A DNA stretch of 64,000 bases. Source: Dyella sp. GSA-30. GTDB lineage: Bacteria > Pseudomonadota > Gammaproteobacteria > Xanthomonadales > Rhodanobacteraceae. Below, piece after piece: positions 4,477 through 63,225 of the stretch. Numbering within the stretch: position 1 is the stretch's first letter; each line of letters opens with the position of its first letter. Under the pieces are notes generated by a model. It was given only the letters and a program-made list of their open reading frames with translations, was not told where the DNA came from and did not search any database. A program made the translations under genes and the position numbers. Location of the stretch: the NCBI RefSeq assembly GCF_027924605.1, contig NZ_AP027042.1, positions 2,767,524-2,831,523 of the forward strand, written 5' to 3'.

Positions 4477-5322
4477 ATGCAGACAGTGCAAGACGCCGCG
4501 GCCCTGCGTGCCGCCGTTCGCGGTTGGCGCAATCAAGGCCAGACCGTGGGTTTGGTGCCCACCATGGGCAACCTGCATGCGGGTCACTACTCGCTGATCA
4601 AGCTGGCGCGTGCCCGTGCCGACCGTGTGGTTGCCAGCGTGTTCGTCAATCCGACCCAGTTCGGGCCGAACGAGGATTTCGAGCGCTATCCTCGGACCCT
4701 GGCGCAGGACCAGGCCGGTCTGGCCGAGGCCGACTGCGATGTCCTGTTCGCCCCGGAAGTGGCCACGATGTATCCGTTCGGGCCGGCCAACAGCGTCAGC
4801 CTGCACGTGCCGCAACTGACCGAAACCCTCGAAGGTGCACATCGCCCGGGTCATTTCGATGGTGTGGCGACGGTGGTGTGCAAGCTGTTCAACCTGGTGC
4901 AGCCGGATCTGGCGGTGTTCGGCCAGAAGGATTTCCAGCAGCTCAAGGTCATCGAGCGGATGGTTCGCGACCTCTCGTTGCCGGTAAAAGTGATGGCTGG
5001 AGCCACCTTGCGCGCCGATGACGGCCTGGCGCTCAGTTCCCGCAACCAGTACCTGTCACGGGACGAGCGTGAGCTTTCGACGCAGATTCACGCCACCCTG
5101 TTGCAGATGCGCGAGCTGATCGACAAGGGACATGCCTGGCGCGTGGTGGAACAGGCCGCGGCGTCCAAGCTGCAGCGGGCCGGTTTCGAGCCTGACTATG
5201 CGGCCATTCGCCGCGCCGAGGACCTTGCCGAGCCCGCCGATGGCGAGACCAGTGGGCTGGTCGCCCTGATCGCCGCCCGCCTGGGCACTACCCGGCTGAT
5301 CGACAACCTTTTGTTCGATTGA
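4477..5322 (+). CDS. panC: Pantothenate synthetase
   Basis: 281 residues. ATP-dependent ligation of pantoate and beta-alanine through a pantoyl-adenylate. Nucleotide-binding HxGH motif is PTMGNLHAGHYSL with His34 and His37; the KMSKS-like loop appears as LALSSRNQYLS. FGQKDFQQL, the adenylate-contacting segment, is intact. 41 bp after panB on the same strand; ends IDNLLFD as in other members. Confidence 0.96.
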   Translation: MQTVQDAAALRAAVRGWRNQGQTVGLVPTMGNLHAGHYSLIKLARARADRVVASVFVNPTQFGPNEDFERYPRTLAQDQAGLAEADCDVLFAPEVATMYPFGPANSVSLHVPQLTETLEGAHRPGHFDGVATVVCKLFNLVQPDLAVFGQKDFQQLKVIERMVRDLSLPVKVMAGATLRADDGLALSSRNQYLSRDERELSTQIHATLLQMRELIDKGHAWRVVEQAAASKLQRAGFEPDYAAIRRAEDLAEPADGETSGLVALIAARLGTTRLIDNLLFD

Positions 5323-7735: not shown

Positions 7736-7867
7736 CCCCCTCACCCCAACCCTCTCCCCCGGCAGAGCCAGGGGAGAGGGAGCAAAAGCGCGAAACTTTG
7801 AAGACTTGCCTCAGTACGTCCCCTCTCCCCTGGATTTGCCGGGGGAGAGGGTTAGGGTGAGGGGGGG
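7736..7867. repeat. Long palindromic repeat, copy A
   Basis: Left arm starts CCCCCTCACCCCAACCCTCT and runs to about 7781; its near-perfect inverse runs 7819-7867. The ~38 bp middle differs from the two other copies in the window (33244-33381 and 63081-63225). It lies between convergent pgi and queG; its right arm is read as the C-terminal codons of queG. Confidence 0.9.
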
Positions 7868-26137: not shown

Positions 26138-27654
<1,517 letters not shown>

Positions 27655-27708: not shown

Positions 27709-29178
27709 ATGAAGTTGCAAGCTCGTATCGCCGGATACCGGCGGCTGCGCGAACAAGCCCTGTGGCGGCTGCTGGCCGCCGATCACGCGCCTGAAATCAT
27801 CGGTCTTCTGCAGACGGTATTGATGGACGGCGAGCGCAAGCTCGGTGCATCCGTGCTGCTGGAGCGCCTGCAATACCAGCTGGACACGCTCAATGCGTCG
27901 GAGCTGCCACGCGAGTTGCCGCGTACGGCCCAGGCCTATGTCGCCGACTGGCTGTCCAAGGGCATCCTGGAACGTCGTCTGCCCGACGATGCGCTGGAAG
28001 AAGAATACGAGCTATCGGCGCAGGCGGCACAGGCCATCCGTTTTATCGGCGGCCTCGACGCGCAGCGTAGCGCCGCCACGGAAAGTCGCCTGGCCCTGGT
28101 GATCGAGCAACTCGTCCGTCTGGCCGAACAGACCGAAACCGATCCAGCCGCACGTCTGTCCGCCCTCTATGCAGAGCGTGACCGCATCGATGCCGAAATT
28201 ACGCGTATCGGCACCGGCAAGGTGGCCGCCATCGATGGCAAGCGCGCCCTCGAACGTACGCGCGAAATCATTCAGCTGGCCGACGAGCTTACCGAGGATT
28301 TTCGTCGCGTGCGCGACGATTTCGAGCGACTCAATCGGGAATTTCGCGAACGTATCATCGACGATGAAGGCGAGCGTGGCGACGTGCTTGACCGGTTGTT
28401 CGAAGGTGTGGACGTGATCGGCGAAAGCGAGGCTGGCCGAAGCTTCAACGCCTTCTGGAGTCTGCTTAACGATGTCGAGCAGAGTGCGCAGCTCGACGCG
28501 GCACTGGAAGAAGTTCTTTCACGCAATTTCGCGCGCAAGTTGCAGCGCAACGAGCGGCAGTTTTTGCGCGGTATTACCGGCGTCATGCTTGAACGCGGTG
28601 GCGAAGTACACGATGTGCTGCAGACCTTTGCCCGCAGCCTGCGCGGTTTCGTGCAGAGTCGCGGCTACCTGGAACAGCGGCGGCTCAACCAGTTGCTCAA
28701 GCAGGCGCAGGCCGAGGCCTTGCAACTGCGCGACTCGGTGCATACCCGCCAGCGCACGTCCTATACCTTGCAGCTGACGACCAGCCGCCTGCGCTCGTTA
28801 TCGCAATGGAAGCTGCACGACCCGCGGAGCACCAGAATCGACGGTCGCATCGACCGTAGCGGTGGCGCGGCCATTTCGCTCGATAGCGTGAGCGAACTGG
28901 TGGCCCAGTCCGAAATCAATTTCCGCGGCCTGCGCCGCGATCTGCACGAACTGTTGGACACGCACGAGCAACTTTCCATTGGGCAGGTGCTGCTGCAGAA
29001 ACCGGCCGAACAAGGCCTGGGCAGCGTGATCGGCTATCTGTCACTGGCAACACGCCATGGCGTGGTTGCCGACGGCGAATGGGAGGCGATCAGCTGGCTC
29101 GGCGGCGACGGAAGCTGGCGGCATGCTCGCGTACCCCTGGTGTGGTTCCTGAAAGAGAAGCGCAATGAATTTGCTTGA
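27709..29178 (+). CDS. jetA: JetA/MksF-like kleisin subunit (DUF3375)
   Basis: 489 residues of the DUF3375 family, the kleisin of Wadjet-type (JetABCD, also MksFEBG) SMC complexes. Seen: a winged-helix-like N-terminus (about 1-130) with [22 protein letters not shown], a long helical region with [23 protein letters not shown] and [15 protein letters not shown], and a C-terminal winged-helix end ([14 protein letters not shown]). No transmembrane segment. It would bridge the two JetC heads and recruit JetB. Overlaps jetB by 14 bp. Family assignment rests on protein similarity that I recall and on the three-gene order. Confidence 0.85.
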
Positions 29179-29827
29179 GGACGAACTCCCCATCGAGGAA
29201 GTCAGCGCGACGCCATCGAAATCCGGCGCGCTCTTCGATGGCGATACTGGCAGCTTGCCGTTGGACGCGCGTCGCGCGCTTTGCCAGCTGTTGAGCGGAC
29301 CCAGCCTGGATGCGGGTCGTCACGACACGCTGTGGCCGGCATTGCTGCGCTACGAGTCACCGGTGCGTTCGCATCTATGCGAGCTGTTCCTTGAGCTGGT
29401 GATCGACCGCGAGGCCGGTGTGGCCTTTACGCGTCAGGCCGATACCGGCGAGCTGGATACACCCGTATTGCTGCGCTCGTCGCCGTTGACCTTCATCGAC
29501 TCGGTCCTGCTGCTGCACCTTCGTCAACAACTGGCCGAGGCGGAAGCCCGCGGTCATCGCGCGGTGGTCGAAGAGGCCGCCTTGTCCGATGCGCTTTCGG
29601 TCTACGAAAAGAATCTGTCCACCGACCGGGCCGGTTTCGCCAAGCGCGTGTCTTCGTCGATCGCCAAGATGAAGGAAAACCACGTGCTGGAAAAACTACG
29701 CGGCAGCGAAGATCGCTACGAAGTCTCGCCCGCCTTGAAGCTGCTGTTTTCTGCCGAAGACGTGCAGGCGCTGGCACAGGTTTACCGCGAGCTGCGCGAT
29801 GCTGGCGATGACGAGGTAGACGCATGA
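29165..29827 (+). CDS. jetB: JetB/MksE-like KITE subunit (DUF4194)
   Basis: 220 residues, DUF4194 family. A short N-terminal leader is followed by a tandem winged-helix (KITE) protein: [33 protein letters not shown] and [18 protein letters not shown] are the typical family stretches. In Wadjet/Mks complexes this subunit binds the kleisin and DNA. Overlaps jetA upstream (14 bp) and jetC downstream (ATGA), so the three products are made in coupled fashion. Confidence 0.85.
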
Positions 29828-32800
29828 GCACCAAGCCCAAGGCGCCGCGTAAGAGTGCACCGAAAAAGCCCAAGCCGGTGCGCACGGTCGCGCCGTCGCT
29901 GTTTCTATCGGATTTGCCCGATCCGCGCGACGAACAGTTCCGCATGCGCCGCCTGCAGGTGTTCAACTGGGGCACGTTCAGCGGTCTGGTCGAAGTGCCT
30001 ATTGCCGAGCGTGGCTTTCTGTTTGTCGGTCGCTCCGGCTCAGGCAAGTCCACCTTGCTCGACGCGATGTCCGCCTTGCTCGTGCCGCCGAACCTGGTCG
30101 ATTTCAACGCCGCCGCGCGTGAAGCCGAGCGCAGCGGGCGTGACCGAAATCTCGCCTCCTATGTCCGCGGCGCCTGGGCCGATCAGCACGATAGCGATTC
30201 GGGCGAGATCGCCACCCAGTATCTGCGCAAGGGCAGTACCTGGGCGGCGCTGGCGCTGGAGTATGGCAATCGCCTTGGCCAGACCGTGAGCGTGATCCGC
30301 ATGTTCTGGATCGCCGGTAATGGTTCGGCAGCGGCAGACGTCAAAAAACATTACATGGTCACCGAGCGTGCATTCGATATTGCCGCCGAACTGGACGGTT
30401 TCGACCTCGACCTGCGCCGCCTGAAAAACCGGCTGGGCGATGACGTTCATCACTTCGATACCTTTGCCGGTTATGCCGAGCGTTTTCGCCGCCTGCTGGG
30501 CATCCAGAACGAGATGGCACTGAAGCTGCTGCACAAGACGCAGTCGGCCAAGAACCTGGGCGATCTCAACCAGTTCCTGCGCGGTTTCATGCTGGACGAG
30601 CCGGAAACCTTCGCCGCGTCGCAACGCCTGGTCGCGGATTTTGCCGAGCTCGATGCCGCGCACAAGTCCGTGGTGATCGCGCGCGAGCAGGTCGACACTT
30701 TGTCGCCCGCCCGCGTTGCGCACGACGACCTGCTGACGCTGCGTCGGCAGACCGGCGAGCTGCGTGAGCTGCACCTTTGCGTGGACGCCTACCGTGAACA
30801 GCGCCGTCTGGTCCTGCTGGACGCGCGCATGGCCGAGATCCAGGTACAGGACACGGCGCTCGCCGGCGAGGTGGCGCAGCGGCGCCAGACGGTGGAAAAC
30901 CACGATCAGCGTCTGGCGGATCTTGAACGTCAACGGCGCGAGCAGGGCGGCGATGCGCTCGATGCACTCGAGCGCGAACATGGTCAGGTGACGCGCGAAC
31001 GCGACGATCGCCTGCGCCGCCGCGGCAAGGTCGAACAAGCCTGTCGCGAACTCGCCTGGAACCTGCCGGGTACGGCACAAGGCTTTGCCGAAATTGTTGG
31101 TCAGGCGCGAGAGTTACTGGACGGCGCACGCGATCGTGCGGCTGGCGTCGAAGACCGCATGGATGCGATCAAGCGCGAACGCGTGCAGGCCGAGCAACGC
31201 TTTGCCGAGGTGCGTGCCGAAATCGACGCCTTGAAGCGCAACCCGTCGAACATTCCGGCGCCGGTTCAGGCCATGCGTGCGCGCCTGTGTCAGGAGCTTG
31301 GCCTCTCCGAGAACGCGTTGCCATTTGTTGGCGAGCTGTTGCAGGTCAAGAGCGAGCACGCCGCGTGGCGTGGCGCGATCGAGCGCGTGCTGCATGGATT
31401 CGCGCTTTCGCTGCTGGTCGACGAGCAGCATTACGCCGAAGTATCGGCCTGGATCAACAAGACTCATCTGGGCGGCAAGCTGGTTTACTACCGTGTCGGT
31501 CATGTCGATGCGCTGCGCGGTCGCGCTCTGGACGCGCGCTCGATGGTGCATCGGTTGGATATTCGCGACCACGCGCACCGCGACTGGCTATCGGCCGAGT
31601 TGTCGCGTCGTTTCGACTATACCTGTGTGGATACGGCGGCGGCTCTGCGCCATGCCGAGCGTGCGATCACTCGCGAGGGCCAGGTCAAGCATCCAGGCGA
31701 TCGTTTCGAGAAGGATGACCGTCGCGCGGTCGACGACCGTCGTCACTGGATCCTTGGCTTCGATAATCGCGACAAGCTGGGCGTTTTCGAGCAGGAAGGG
31801 CAGGGGCTGGCGCAAACCATTGCGCAAAGCGCGGCGGCGCTCGATACGTTGAAGGCCGAGCGCGACGCCGATGGCGACCGCCGGGTGTCGGCGGCCAACC
31901 TGCTGCATGTGGAATGGGAAGAGATCGACGTGGCGCCGAAGCTGCGCCGCCTGGGTGATATCGAAACCCAGTTGCAGCAGTTGCGTCAGGGCGATGCGAG
32001 CCTGCAGGACGTGATGCAGCGGCTCGACGAAGAGCGCACCTTGCGTGTCCGCGCCGCCAAGACATACGAAGATGCGATGGCCGAACGGCTGGCCGTGGGC
32101 AAGGAGCGGGAGCGGATCGAAGCGCGTCGCGAGGGTTGTGCATCCAGAGCTGGTGAGATGCCGCTGTCGCCGATGCAGTCCCAGGGGCTTGCGGGGCGCC
32201 TGCCAGCGCACCCGCCGCTTACGCTGGACAACCTGGACGGCCAGGTCAATCAGGTCGAGCGTGGCTTGAACGAATCGCTGGCCCATCAGGCCGCGCAGGA
32301 CAACGCACTAGTTCAGGCCATCGAAGAATGTTTCCGCGCGTTCTGCCGCCGTTGGCCCCAGGATGGCGGTGACTTCACGCCGAATATGGATTCCGCCGAA
32401 GGCTTTCTCGCCCGCCTGCGCCGGCTGGAGCTCGACGGCCTGCCCAAGCATGAGGCGCGCTTCTTCGATCTGTTGCAAAGCCAGAGCAAGCAGAACCTGC
32501 TGGTCCTGCAGAAACACATGACCGAGGCGCGCAAGTCGATCGGCCAGCGCATGGACGAGGTCAACGAGAGTCTGGAGCGCGTCCCCTTCAACCGAGGTAC
32601 GCTGTTGCAGATCGATCTCTCCGATCGCGGTCTGCAGGAGGTGCGCGACTTCCAGCAGCAGCTGCGCGACGTGCTATCGCACAACCAGACCGAAGATCGT
32701 GAGCGCGCCGAAGCGCAGTTCGCGATCCTGCGCCAGTTGGTGGCCCGACTCGGGGCGGATGACCCAGAGCACAAGCGTTGGCGCGAGCAGGTGCTGGACG

Positions 32801-33243
32801 TGCGCCAGCATGTCGAATTCGTTGGCGTGGAAATGGAGGCCGATACGCGTCGGCAGATCGAGGTGTATCGCAGCGGCGCGGGCAAGTCCGGCGGTCAGCG
32901 GCAGAAGTTGGCCACCACCTGTCTGGCCGCCGCATTGCGTTATCAGCTTGGTGGTGATGACGGCCACCTGCCGCGCTATGCGCCGGTGGTGCTCGACGAG
33001 GCGTTCGACAAGGCCGACAACGAGTTCACTGCGTTGGCGATGAATATCTTCGAGAACTTCGGGTTTCAGATGGTAGTGGCCACGCCGTTGAAATCGGTGA
33101 TGACGCTGGAGCCTTTTATTGGCGGGGCGTGTTTTGTCGATATCACTGGACGCCATGATTCGGGCGTGTTGCTGATCTCGTATGACGAGGATGCCAGGCG
33201 GCTGGCGTTGCCGGAGAAGGTGCGTGAGGTTGAGGTGGTGTAA
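29824..33243 (+). CDS. jetC: JetC/MksB-like SMC ATPase
   Basis: 1139 residues. N-terminal basic tail ([17 protein letters not shown]), then an SMC head with Walker [10 protein letters not shown] at 69-77, two coiled-coil stretches (about 300-470 and 620-780, rich in Arg/Glu/Gln heptads) around a central domain (about 485-610, [20 protein letters not shown] and [16 protein letters not shown]) that acts as hinge, and the second head half with signature [10 protein letters not shown] (Ser1022) and Walker [12 protein letters not shown] (Asp1058). All catalytic motifs are intact, so it should be an active loop-extruding ATPase. The stop codon is followed at once by palindromic repeat copy B, and no JetD gene follows. 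Confidence 0.87.
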
Positions 33244-33381
33244 GAGCCCCCCTCACCCCAACCCTCTCCCCCGGCAGAGCCAGGGGAGAGGGAGCACACT
33301 GAGGCAAGTTTTAATCGTGCGCGTTTTAGCTCCCTCTCCCCTGGCTCTGCCGGGGGAGAGGGCTGGGGTGAGGGGGCGCTC
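33244..33381. repeat. Long palindromic repeat, copy B
   Basis: Begins one base after the jetC stop. Left arm AGCCCCCCTCACCCCAACCC... to about 33295; inverse arm about 33329-33381. Arms pair with only a few mismatches. Between convergent jetC and rpsT. Confidence 0.9.
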
Positions 33382-33389
33382 TCGATCAG

Positions 33390-33503
33390 AAAACAAAAAA
33401 AAGCCGACTTTCGCCGGCCCGCTTTTATAGGTAAACAAAAAAGCCGACTCACGCCGGCCCGCTTTTATAAGTAAACAAAAAAGCCGGCTCACGCCGGCTT
33501 TTC
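33390..33503. repeat. Three tandem 40-bp units, each a terminator-like hairpin
   Basis: AAGCCG begins at 33401, 33441 and 33481, exactly 40 bp apart, within units of the form AAGCCGRCTYWCGCCGGCYY...TTTTATARGTAAACAAAA. Only the unit nearest rpsT has a perfect stem; the two outer copies carry matching mismatches, consistent with tandem duplication of a terminator. Confidence 0.85.
33476..33503 (-). terminator. rpsT: Terminator of rpsT
   Basis: On the minus strand AAAAGCCGGC-gtga-GCCGGCTTTTTTG, perfect stem and T-run, 32 bp after the rpsT stop. Confidence 0.85.
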
Positions 33504-33534
33504 TTATCCAACCCGAATGTAATCCAAGGCCGGC

Positions 33535-33798
33535 TTACGCCAGCTCGTGGATCTTCGCGTTGAGGCGGCTCTTATGACGAGCGGCCTTGTTCTTGTGGAT
33601 CAGGCCGCGGGCGGCGTAACGATCCATCACCGGCTGGGCGGTGGCAAAGGCTTCGACAGCGGCAGCCTTGTCCTTGGCCTCAATGGCCTTGATGACCTTC
33701 TTGAGGGCGCTGCGCACCATGGAACGGGCGCTGACGTTGCGCAGGCGGCGCTGCTCGGACTGGCGCGCACGCTTCTTCGCGGACTTGATGTTGGCCAA
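33535..33798 (-). CDS. rpsT: 30S ribosomal protein S20
   Basis: 87 residues. [20 protein letters not shown] then [20 protein letters not shown] and [20 protein letters not shown] are the diagnostic S20 helices that bind 16S rRNA. Monocistronic, with its own strong promoter and terminator. Divergent from murJ, the standard rpsT/murJ neighbourhood of gammaproteobacteria. Confidence 0.98.
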
Positions 33799-63080: not shown

Positions 63081-63225
63081 GCTTCCCCTCACCCCAGCCC
63101 TCTCCCCCGGCAAAGCCAGGGGAGAGGGAGCAGGTTTTCGGAAATACGGAACGCTGAGGATCTACTCAGTCGGCTCCCTCTCCCCTGGCTTTGCCGGGGG
63201 AGAGGGCTGGGGTGAGGGGGGGAAG
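63081..63225. repeat. Long palindromic repeat, copy C
   Basis: Left arm 63081-63131 (begins GCTTCCCCTCACCCCAGCCC), inverse arm about 63172-63225. Starts 4 bp after the fecR stop; here the next gene runs in the same direction, so it may separate the regulatory operon from the transporter gene. Confidence 0.9.

Follow-up and report, generated by a model that had tools for sequence, protein, structure and literature searches.

A nuclease-less Wadjet core at the obgE-rpsT site of Dyella sp. GSA-30 that may serve as a second, MksBEF-like condensin

An SMC ATPase, a kleisin and a KITE protein make up the general architecture of MukBEF and Smc-ScpAB, and the same architecture is shared by type I Wadjet (JetABCD or MksBEFG), which in addition has the JetD/MksG nuclease. 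Here we describe the jetABC genes of Dyella sp. GSA-30, for which no such nuclease was found; they lie in a window of 64,000 nucleotides (NZ_AP027042.1, positions 2,767,524 to 2,831,523, forward strand), the whole stretch analysed, and all feature coordinates below are window positions. From solved Wadjet complexes, JetABC is described as a dimer-of-dimers motor, and in the total-extrusion model JetD is believed to be set off when this motor runs into itself on a small circle (PMC10586767). Nuclease-free JetABC and MksBEF are already known from Stenotrophomonas and Pseudomonas aeruginosa, and the complex is not a new kind. The P. aeruginosa MksBEF is likewise a three-gene kleisin-KITE-SMC system without a nuclease beside a canonical SMC (PMC7485682, PMC10586767), with which it shares the work on the chromosome (PMC7485682). 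MksBEF, and perhaps MukBEF, have been proposed to derive from anti-plasmid SMC systems, in the case of P. aeruginosa MksBEF by loss of JetD (PMC10586767). A Wadjet I of Stenotrophomonas maltophilia, likewise with conserved jetABC and no jetD, was judged probably inactive (PMC11680222).

We give about an even chance to the reading that the window encodes the JetABC core of a type I Wadjet that has lost JetD and is retained as a working second, MksBEF-like condensin that does not cut DNA. What is observed in its favour is that genes and motifs are intact, that no JetD was found in the genome, that JetD is absent repeatedly while JetD-bearing alleles occupy the same site, and that the genes are under purifying selection. 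The original prediction, made from the sequence of the window, had proposed a nuclease-free MksBEF-like condensin; the lack of a JetD match genome-wide, the intact ATPase and this role as the best reading are all supported, with action on the chromosome something that we still infer.

The three genes are full-length, overlapping open reading frames (ORFs) between obgE (26575..27654, forward strand, start codon inferred) and rpsT (33535..33798, reverse strand), two flanking ORFs that keep the names given to them in the original prediction. The kleisin gene, jetA (mksF-like; 27709..29178, forward strand), is intact and encodes 489 residues matched by DUF3375 (PF11855, 512 bits). It overlaps jetB (29165..29827, forward strand), which encodes an mksE-like KITE protein of 220 residues matched by DUF4194 (PF13835, 161 bits) and in turn overlaps jetC (29824..33243, forward strand). 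The latter encodes an SMC ATPase of 1139 residues, on which Pfam places AAA_29 and SbcC_Walker_B, two SbcC-like ATPase halves. The matching PADLOC models are JetA1 (E 7e-191), JetB1 (E 5e-101) and JetC1 (E 0, 1421 bits). In JetC, the Walker A motif (G69 to T77, residues 69-77; 30028..30054), the ABC signature SGGQ (S1022 to Q1025, residues 1022-1025; 32887..32898) and the Walker B pair Asp1058-Glu1059 (32995..33000), all on the forward strand, are invariant in an alignment of ten rows, the window and nine relatives. The claim of three intact, overlapping genes with a complete set of ATPase motifs is thus borne out by the ORFs, Pfam, PADLOC and the alignment.

When the window proteins were searched against PDB sequences, JetC matched four sequences at E values up to 1e-3, all of them JetC chains, with no MukB or Smc chain among them; solved JetA chains were matches of the window JetA, and JetB gave no credible match. 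The NCBIfam prokaryotic SMC model TIGR02169 scores 18 bits on JetC, below its cut-off of 729.4. Its sequence marks JetC as belonging to type I Wadjet rather than to MukB or Smc. With type I Wadjet the locus shares the jetA-jetB-jetC order, the best PADLOC and PDB matches and four same-site relatives that do carry jetD. The original prediction had asked whether JetC would fall with Wadjet or with MksB; PADLOC and the PDB place it with Wadjet, the P. aeruginosa MksB sequence itself not being in the comparison, and the one Pseudomonas genome searched yielded only its own JetC-type protein and one weak match (E 0.3). The chromosomal role of P. aeruginosa MksBEF has been demonstrated, whereas that of the window complex is inferred.

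Searches with JetD_C (PF09983) and DUF3322 (PF11795) found no match in the complete, single-contig 5.50-Mb genome, while both families matched the positive control, Corynebacterium glutamicum. That jetC is followed by a palindromic repeat and by rpsT on the opposite strand, with no jetD at the locus, had been noticed from the window; the inverted repeat and rpsT are indeed there, and no jetD was found elsewhere in the genome. The same genome encodes a 1202-residue Smc-type protein, which would make JetABC the second condensin-like complex of the cell.

The same site was compared among Dyella-type genomes, that is, genera g1, g8 and g10 (the genus of the window and two with Dyella as named members), in which 18 genomes, the window included, have a JetA match. 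In all 18 obgE lies upstream of jetA, and in 17 rpsT lies downstream, the fetched stretch of the 18th ending before it. Four loci have jetD directly after jetC (G069; G071, D. choica; G078, D. nitratireducens; G087, D. marensis). Thirteen, among them the window, are without jetD, and in 13 of 13 JetA, JetB and JetC are full length. All that is left of the cassette in the last (G080, a 3.5-Mb genome) is a piece of jetA flanked by obgE and rpsT (L101, near 5007-5180). A further Dyella-type genome, G083, was left out; its JetD, on a 5.3-kb contig, has as neighbour a JetC that shares only 42% identity with the window protein. JetC of the JetD-bearing and JetD-less versions is about 80% identical. 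With a jetD query trimmed at the jetC stop, no jetD remnant was found after jetC in any of the 13 JetD-less loci, apart from an end-piece: the last 20-40 nucleotides of the jetD ORF match two of them (the window and G068), the window match falling on a dispersed repeat. In D. nitratireducens (L116) a gap of about 1.1 kb between jetA and jetB splits the operon.

What follows jetC also bears on the possibility that JetABC partners another nuclease in trans. Selection that keeps jetABC intact would fit such a partner, as would the island that the JetD-less genes of S. maltophilia share with recBCD (PMC11680222). At the Dyella-type site, however, no common gene replaces jetD: jetC and rpsT are 186-333 bp apart in five of 13 JetD-less loci (G000, G086, G088, G090 and G091), the distance in the window being 291 bp, and four of the eight longer gaps begin with an ORF that is found behind jetD as well, in three JetD-bearing loci. 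The empty genome search speaks against it too as far as JetD_C and DUF3322 go, other nuclease families not having been searched. Around three JetD-less loci of Xanthomonas and Stenotrophomonas, eight flanking ORFs included no nuclease family and one without any family, ORF picking being crude in these GC-rich genomes. We consider a nuclease in trans improbable.

A tree of the JetC core was calculated from 93 rows, 33 with JetD and 60 without. Rows at contig edges, fragments, duplicates and sequences as distant as about 30% identity were excluded, as was Dyella silvatica, the locus of which starts inside jetC. On this tree the JetD state needs eight changes, seven of them forced by supported branches, and the JetD-less S. 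maltophilia loci fall within it. The JetD tree mirrors the JetC tree, with a Mantel r of 0.96 over the 33 rows and of 0.95 over the 21 Xanthomonadales rows (0 of 999 permutations each), indicating that JetD travelled with JetABC and that its absences are best read as losses. Repeated loss of JetD is the history that fits these trees best.

Selection was estimated as the ratio of non-synonymous to synonymous substitution rates (dN/dS) by the Nei-Gojobori method, at a mean dS of 0.25-1.1 and hence roughly, with obgE and murJ as controls for the Dyella clades only. Mean pairwise values in four JetD-less clades are 0.07-0.10 for jetA, 0.07-0.12 for jetB and 0.04-0.15 for jetC (0.06, 0.10, 0.04 and 0.15 by clade); in three JetD-bearing clades they are 0.06-0.15, 0.11-0.16 and 0.08-0.19 (jetC 0.08, 0.12 and 0.19). 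On the window branch dN/dS is 0.06-0.07 for jetA, 0.07-0.11 for jetB and 0.08-0.10 for jetC, lower than on four JetD-bearing sister branches (0.10-0.13, 0.14-0.28 and 0.14-0.26, respectively). No such slowing on the window branch is seen for the controls obgE and murJ. The genes are under purifying selection and are not decaying, and for the JetD-less S. maltophilia version this measured selection contradicts the verdict of probable inactivity. That verdict, together with the near-total loss at G080, would favour a Wadjet remnant in decay that has not yet disappeared. The low dN/dS of the JetD-less clades, the window branch being slower than its JetD-bearing sisters, and the full-length proteins in all 13 JetD-less obgE-rpsT loci argue against such a remnant, which we regard as very improbable. 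A jetD elsewhere that co-varies with jetABC, or recent loss of jetD with decaying jetABC, had been named in advance as outcomes that would overturn the proposal of a nuclease-free condensin; no jetD turned up elsewhere, and although the phylogeny does point to loss, the decay is missing.

In the family sample, the Rhodanobacteraceae, DUF3375 matched in 44 of 233 genomes and JetD_C in 45. The question of whether jetABC is core in the family therefore has a split answer: wherever Dyella-type genomes have JetA it is at the obgE-rpsT site, but across the family jetABC is not core. The 44 JetA genomes comprise 2 with fragments, 25 with a strong JetD (that of G227 with a stop) and 17 without, of which G084, G177 and G229 have the genes near contig edges. 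In the order sample of 398 genomes, 2 of 96 JetA genomes (G080 and G448) were dropped as fragments; of the remaining 94, most of them scored by two family searches rather than by inspection of the locus, 45 have a strong JetD and 49 have none. Three of these 49 are less than 90% complete, and among genomes at least 90% complete the count is 46 of 86 without JetD. Outside the order, a class sample of 312 genomes contained 37 JetA genomes, of which 3 from Xanthomonadales and 4 with a weak match were set aside, leaving 30: 26 with a strong JetD and 4 without, counted by hand. Among the former, G514 and G708 show only the end of JetA at a contig edge; among the latter, JetA is broken in G603, the G621 locus is at a contig edge and the completeness of G575 is 78%. 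The difference (49 of 94 against 4 of 30) has a Fisher p of 2e-4, uncorrected for relatedness and with assembly gaps that may hide jetD.

Nuclease-less JetABC is concentrated in Xanthomonadales and is a recurrent state rather than an isolated oddity. Among named loci it occurs chiefly in Dyella, Xanthomonas and Stenotrophomonas, the Stenotrophomonas loci lying at another genome position, with no obgE or rpsT match. JetABCD is reported in most strains of Xylella fastidiosa, with pseudogenes in some (PMC9148166). One locus (L170) is on a contig labelled Bacillus subtilis; its jetC groups with Stenotrophomonas nematodicola, and it is probably an assembly contamination.

Several observations weigh against a working, chromosomal JetABC core. 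The related MksBEFG of C. glutamicum, in which the nuclease is retained, is not a chromosome-folding complex (PMC7083940; on the role of the nuclease, PMC10123090). Slowing is not general: in JetD-less G073 and G077 jetC has a dN/dS of 0.15-0.16, similar to that of the JetD-bearing kin that share most of the branch, and in a JetD-bearing Dyella trio that of jetA is 0.06, below the JetD-less Dyella clades (0.07 and 0.10). The dS of 0.5-0.8 on the window branch makes the ratios there rough. Individual JetD-less loci are disrupted: a 3-kb gap between jetA and jetB splits the operon in G070 (L070), jetC is broken in a locus of X. axonopodis (1 of 80 loci), and in Xanthomonas phaseoli a 408-residue ORF, which we take to be transposase-like, lies between jetB and jetC (L177, 8562-9788). 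The jetA fragment of G080 belongs in this list too. Unordered parsimony on a 17-row Dyella-type tree needs only three JetD changes. Finally, the jetABCD cassette of D. marensis (G087, L075) groups with JetD-bearing cassettes of another genus, while its neighbouring genes group with their own genus, a conflict indicating that whole cassettes are exchanged at the obgE-rpsT site. Part of the JetD pattern may thus reflect exchange of alleles instead of deletion in place.

This apparent exchange of JetD-bearing and JetD-less cassettes at one site would also suit a JetABC that still acts in defence or plasmid control, trapping, compacting or mis-segregating small circular DNA without cutting it. Such a role is compatible with the type I assignment of JetABC by sequence and with the view that JetABC, rather than JetD, senses the shape and size of DNA (PMC10586767). 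In the two JetD-less Dyella clades, however, jetABC dN/dS is 0.06-0.12, close to the 0.06-0.09 of obgE and murJ. Values near those of housekeeping genes are unusual for a defence gene. Non-cutting plasmid control seems unlikely to us, though it stands ahead of a nuclease in trans, which in turn stands ahead of slow decay.

If the JetD-less complex is instead the retained condensin proposed above, JetABC would load on chromosomal DNA and, driven by ATP, extrude or bridge loops; the motor could still work without JetD. The cell would then have two condensins at work, Smc and JetABC, the latter MksBEF-like and not cutting DNA. Loop extrusion is assigned to the window complex by analogy with its Wadjet relatives, and its action on the chromosome is likewise presumed. 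Chromosome organisation, as for P. aeruginosa MksBEF (PMC7485682), would be the most economical role.

The ends of JetC offer a possible clue to such a role. Long basic tails, defined as at least 60 residues with a charge of +5 or more, are present in 24 of the 60 JetD-less rows and in 0 of the 33 JetD-bearing rows. They are N-terminal and 98-118 residues long in one JetD-less Dyella clade (five of five rows), and C-terminal and 73-320 residues long in 19 JetD-less rows of Xanthomonas, some Stenotrophomonas and relatives, the longest (320 residues, X. phaseoli) having an end unlike the others that may be frameshifted. The tails of Dyella and of several Stenotrophomonas-type rows contain 12-21% lysine and 15-38% alanine, and the Xanthomonas tails examined contain 8-11% lysine with arginine equally high; in the JetC core lysine accounts for 3% and arginine is almost four times as frequent. 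The composition of the tails is reminiscent of linker-histone-like tails; two tails searched against Pfam matched no family, and the lysine-rich ones may bind DNA. A three-state tail label changes four times on the JetC tree, for three or four tail events, and an independent-pairs sign test of tails against JetD gives a median p of 1 (range 0.25-1), there being few tail origins; with so few events the link between tails and JetD is unproven, although every tailed row is without JetD. JetD-bearing L124 has a C-terminal tail of 77 residues and charge +3, just below the cut-off, and long tails are missing from 36 JetD-less rows, which include the S. maltophilia complex. At its N-terminus the window JetC has no more than a short basic tail, lysine- and proline-rich, of about 25 residues (29824..29898, forward strand; 6 lysines and a net charge of +5 in the first 39 residues), and most JetD-bearing Dyella relatives also have one.

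Taken more broadly, and only tentatively, Wadjet in Xanthomonadales may have been converted repeatedly into a chromosomal condensin, dropping the nuclease, keeping the SMC core under strong constraint and independently acquiring linker-histone-like tails, rich in lysine, alanine and proline, that tether JetC to bulk DNA, N-terminal in one Dyella clade and C-terminal in Xanthomonas and some Stenotrophomonas. The window, with its short basic tail, would represent an early stage. Full-text searches of the open-licence literature listed no work on JetD being lost several times in Xanthomonadales while selection is retained, or on JetC tails that resemble histones.

Signals of a released JetD contact came to nothing. 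An IFDR motif at the JetB N-terminus has been reported to contact JetD (PMC10586767), but a simple pattern for it flagged one listed row, which is JetD-less and probably spurious, and was uninformative. Sites near-invariant in JetD-bearing rows and lost in JetD-less ones number 5 of 190 in JetA, 1 of 76 in JetB and 6 of 403 in JetC. The reverse count, of sites near-invariant in JetD-less rows, is larger (23 of 246, 8 of 98 and 41 of 519), so these changes are no evidence for a released interface. Four of the five JetA sites fall in residues 364-421, a contact patch there being only a guess, and none of the five is changed in the window, which has the JetD-type residue at each.

Upstream, 54 bp separate obgE from jetA, and no promoter-like or terminator-like match was found within them, in line with the earlier remark that this gap has no terminator. 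Across 17 loci the spacing varies from 8 to 223 bp, so a tight link with obgE is no conserved feature of the locus, and co-expression of jetABC with obgE is a conjecture. Downstream of jetC lies an inverted repeat of 48 nucleotides (33248..33376; arms 33248-33295 and 33329-33376, 98% complementary), a dispersed, REPIN-like palindromic element with two further copies in the window (7750-7851 and 63098-63206) and six matches to a 20-mer against 0.01 expected. A sequence scan placed three terminator-like hairpins (33397..33504, reverse strand) 3' of rpsT on its strand, two of which sit in 40-bp repeats that are 93% alike.

In Dyella-type bacteria, a transition from defence to housekeeping appears to have taken place more than once at a single site and among close relatives. 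With JetC about 80% identical between versions with and without JetD, these relatives make the switch directly testable, and the histone-like tails of JetC are a concrete, testable clue to the job of the converted complex. The findings suggest that jetABC without jetD should not be dismissed as an incomplete or inactive defence system in these lineages. They also suggest that Dyella sp. GSA-30 and many of its relatives dropped the cutter yet kept the motor, turning a defence weapon into a housekeeping organiser of DNA.
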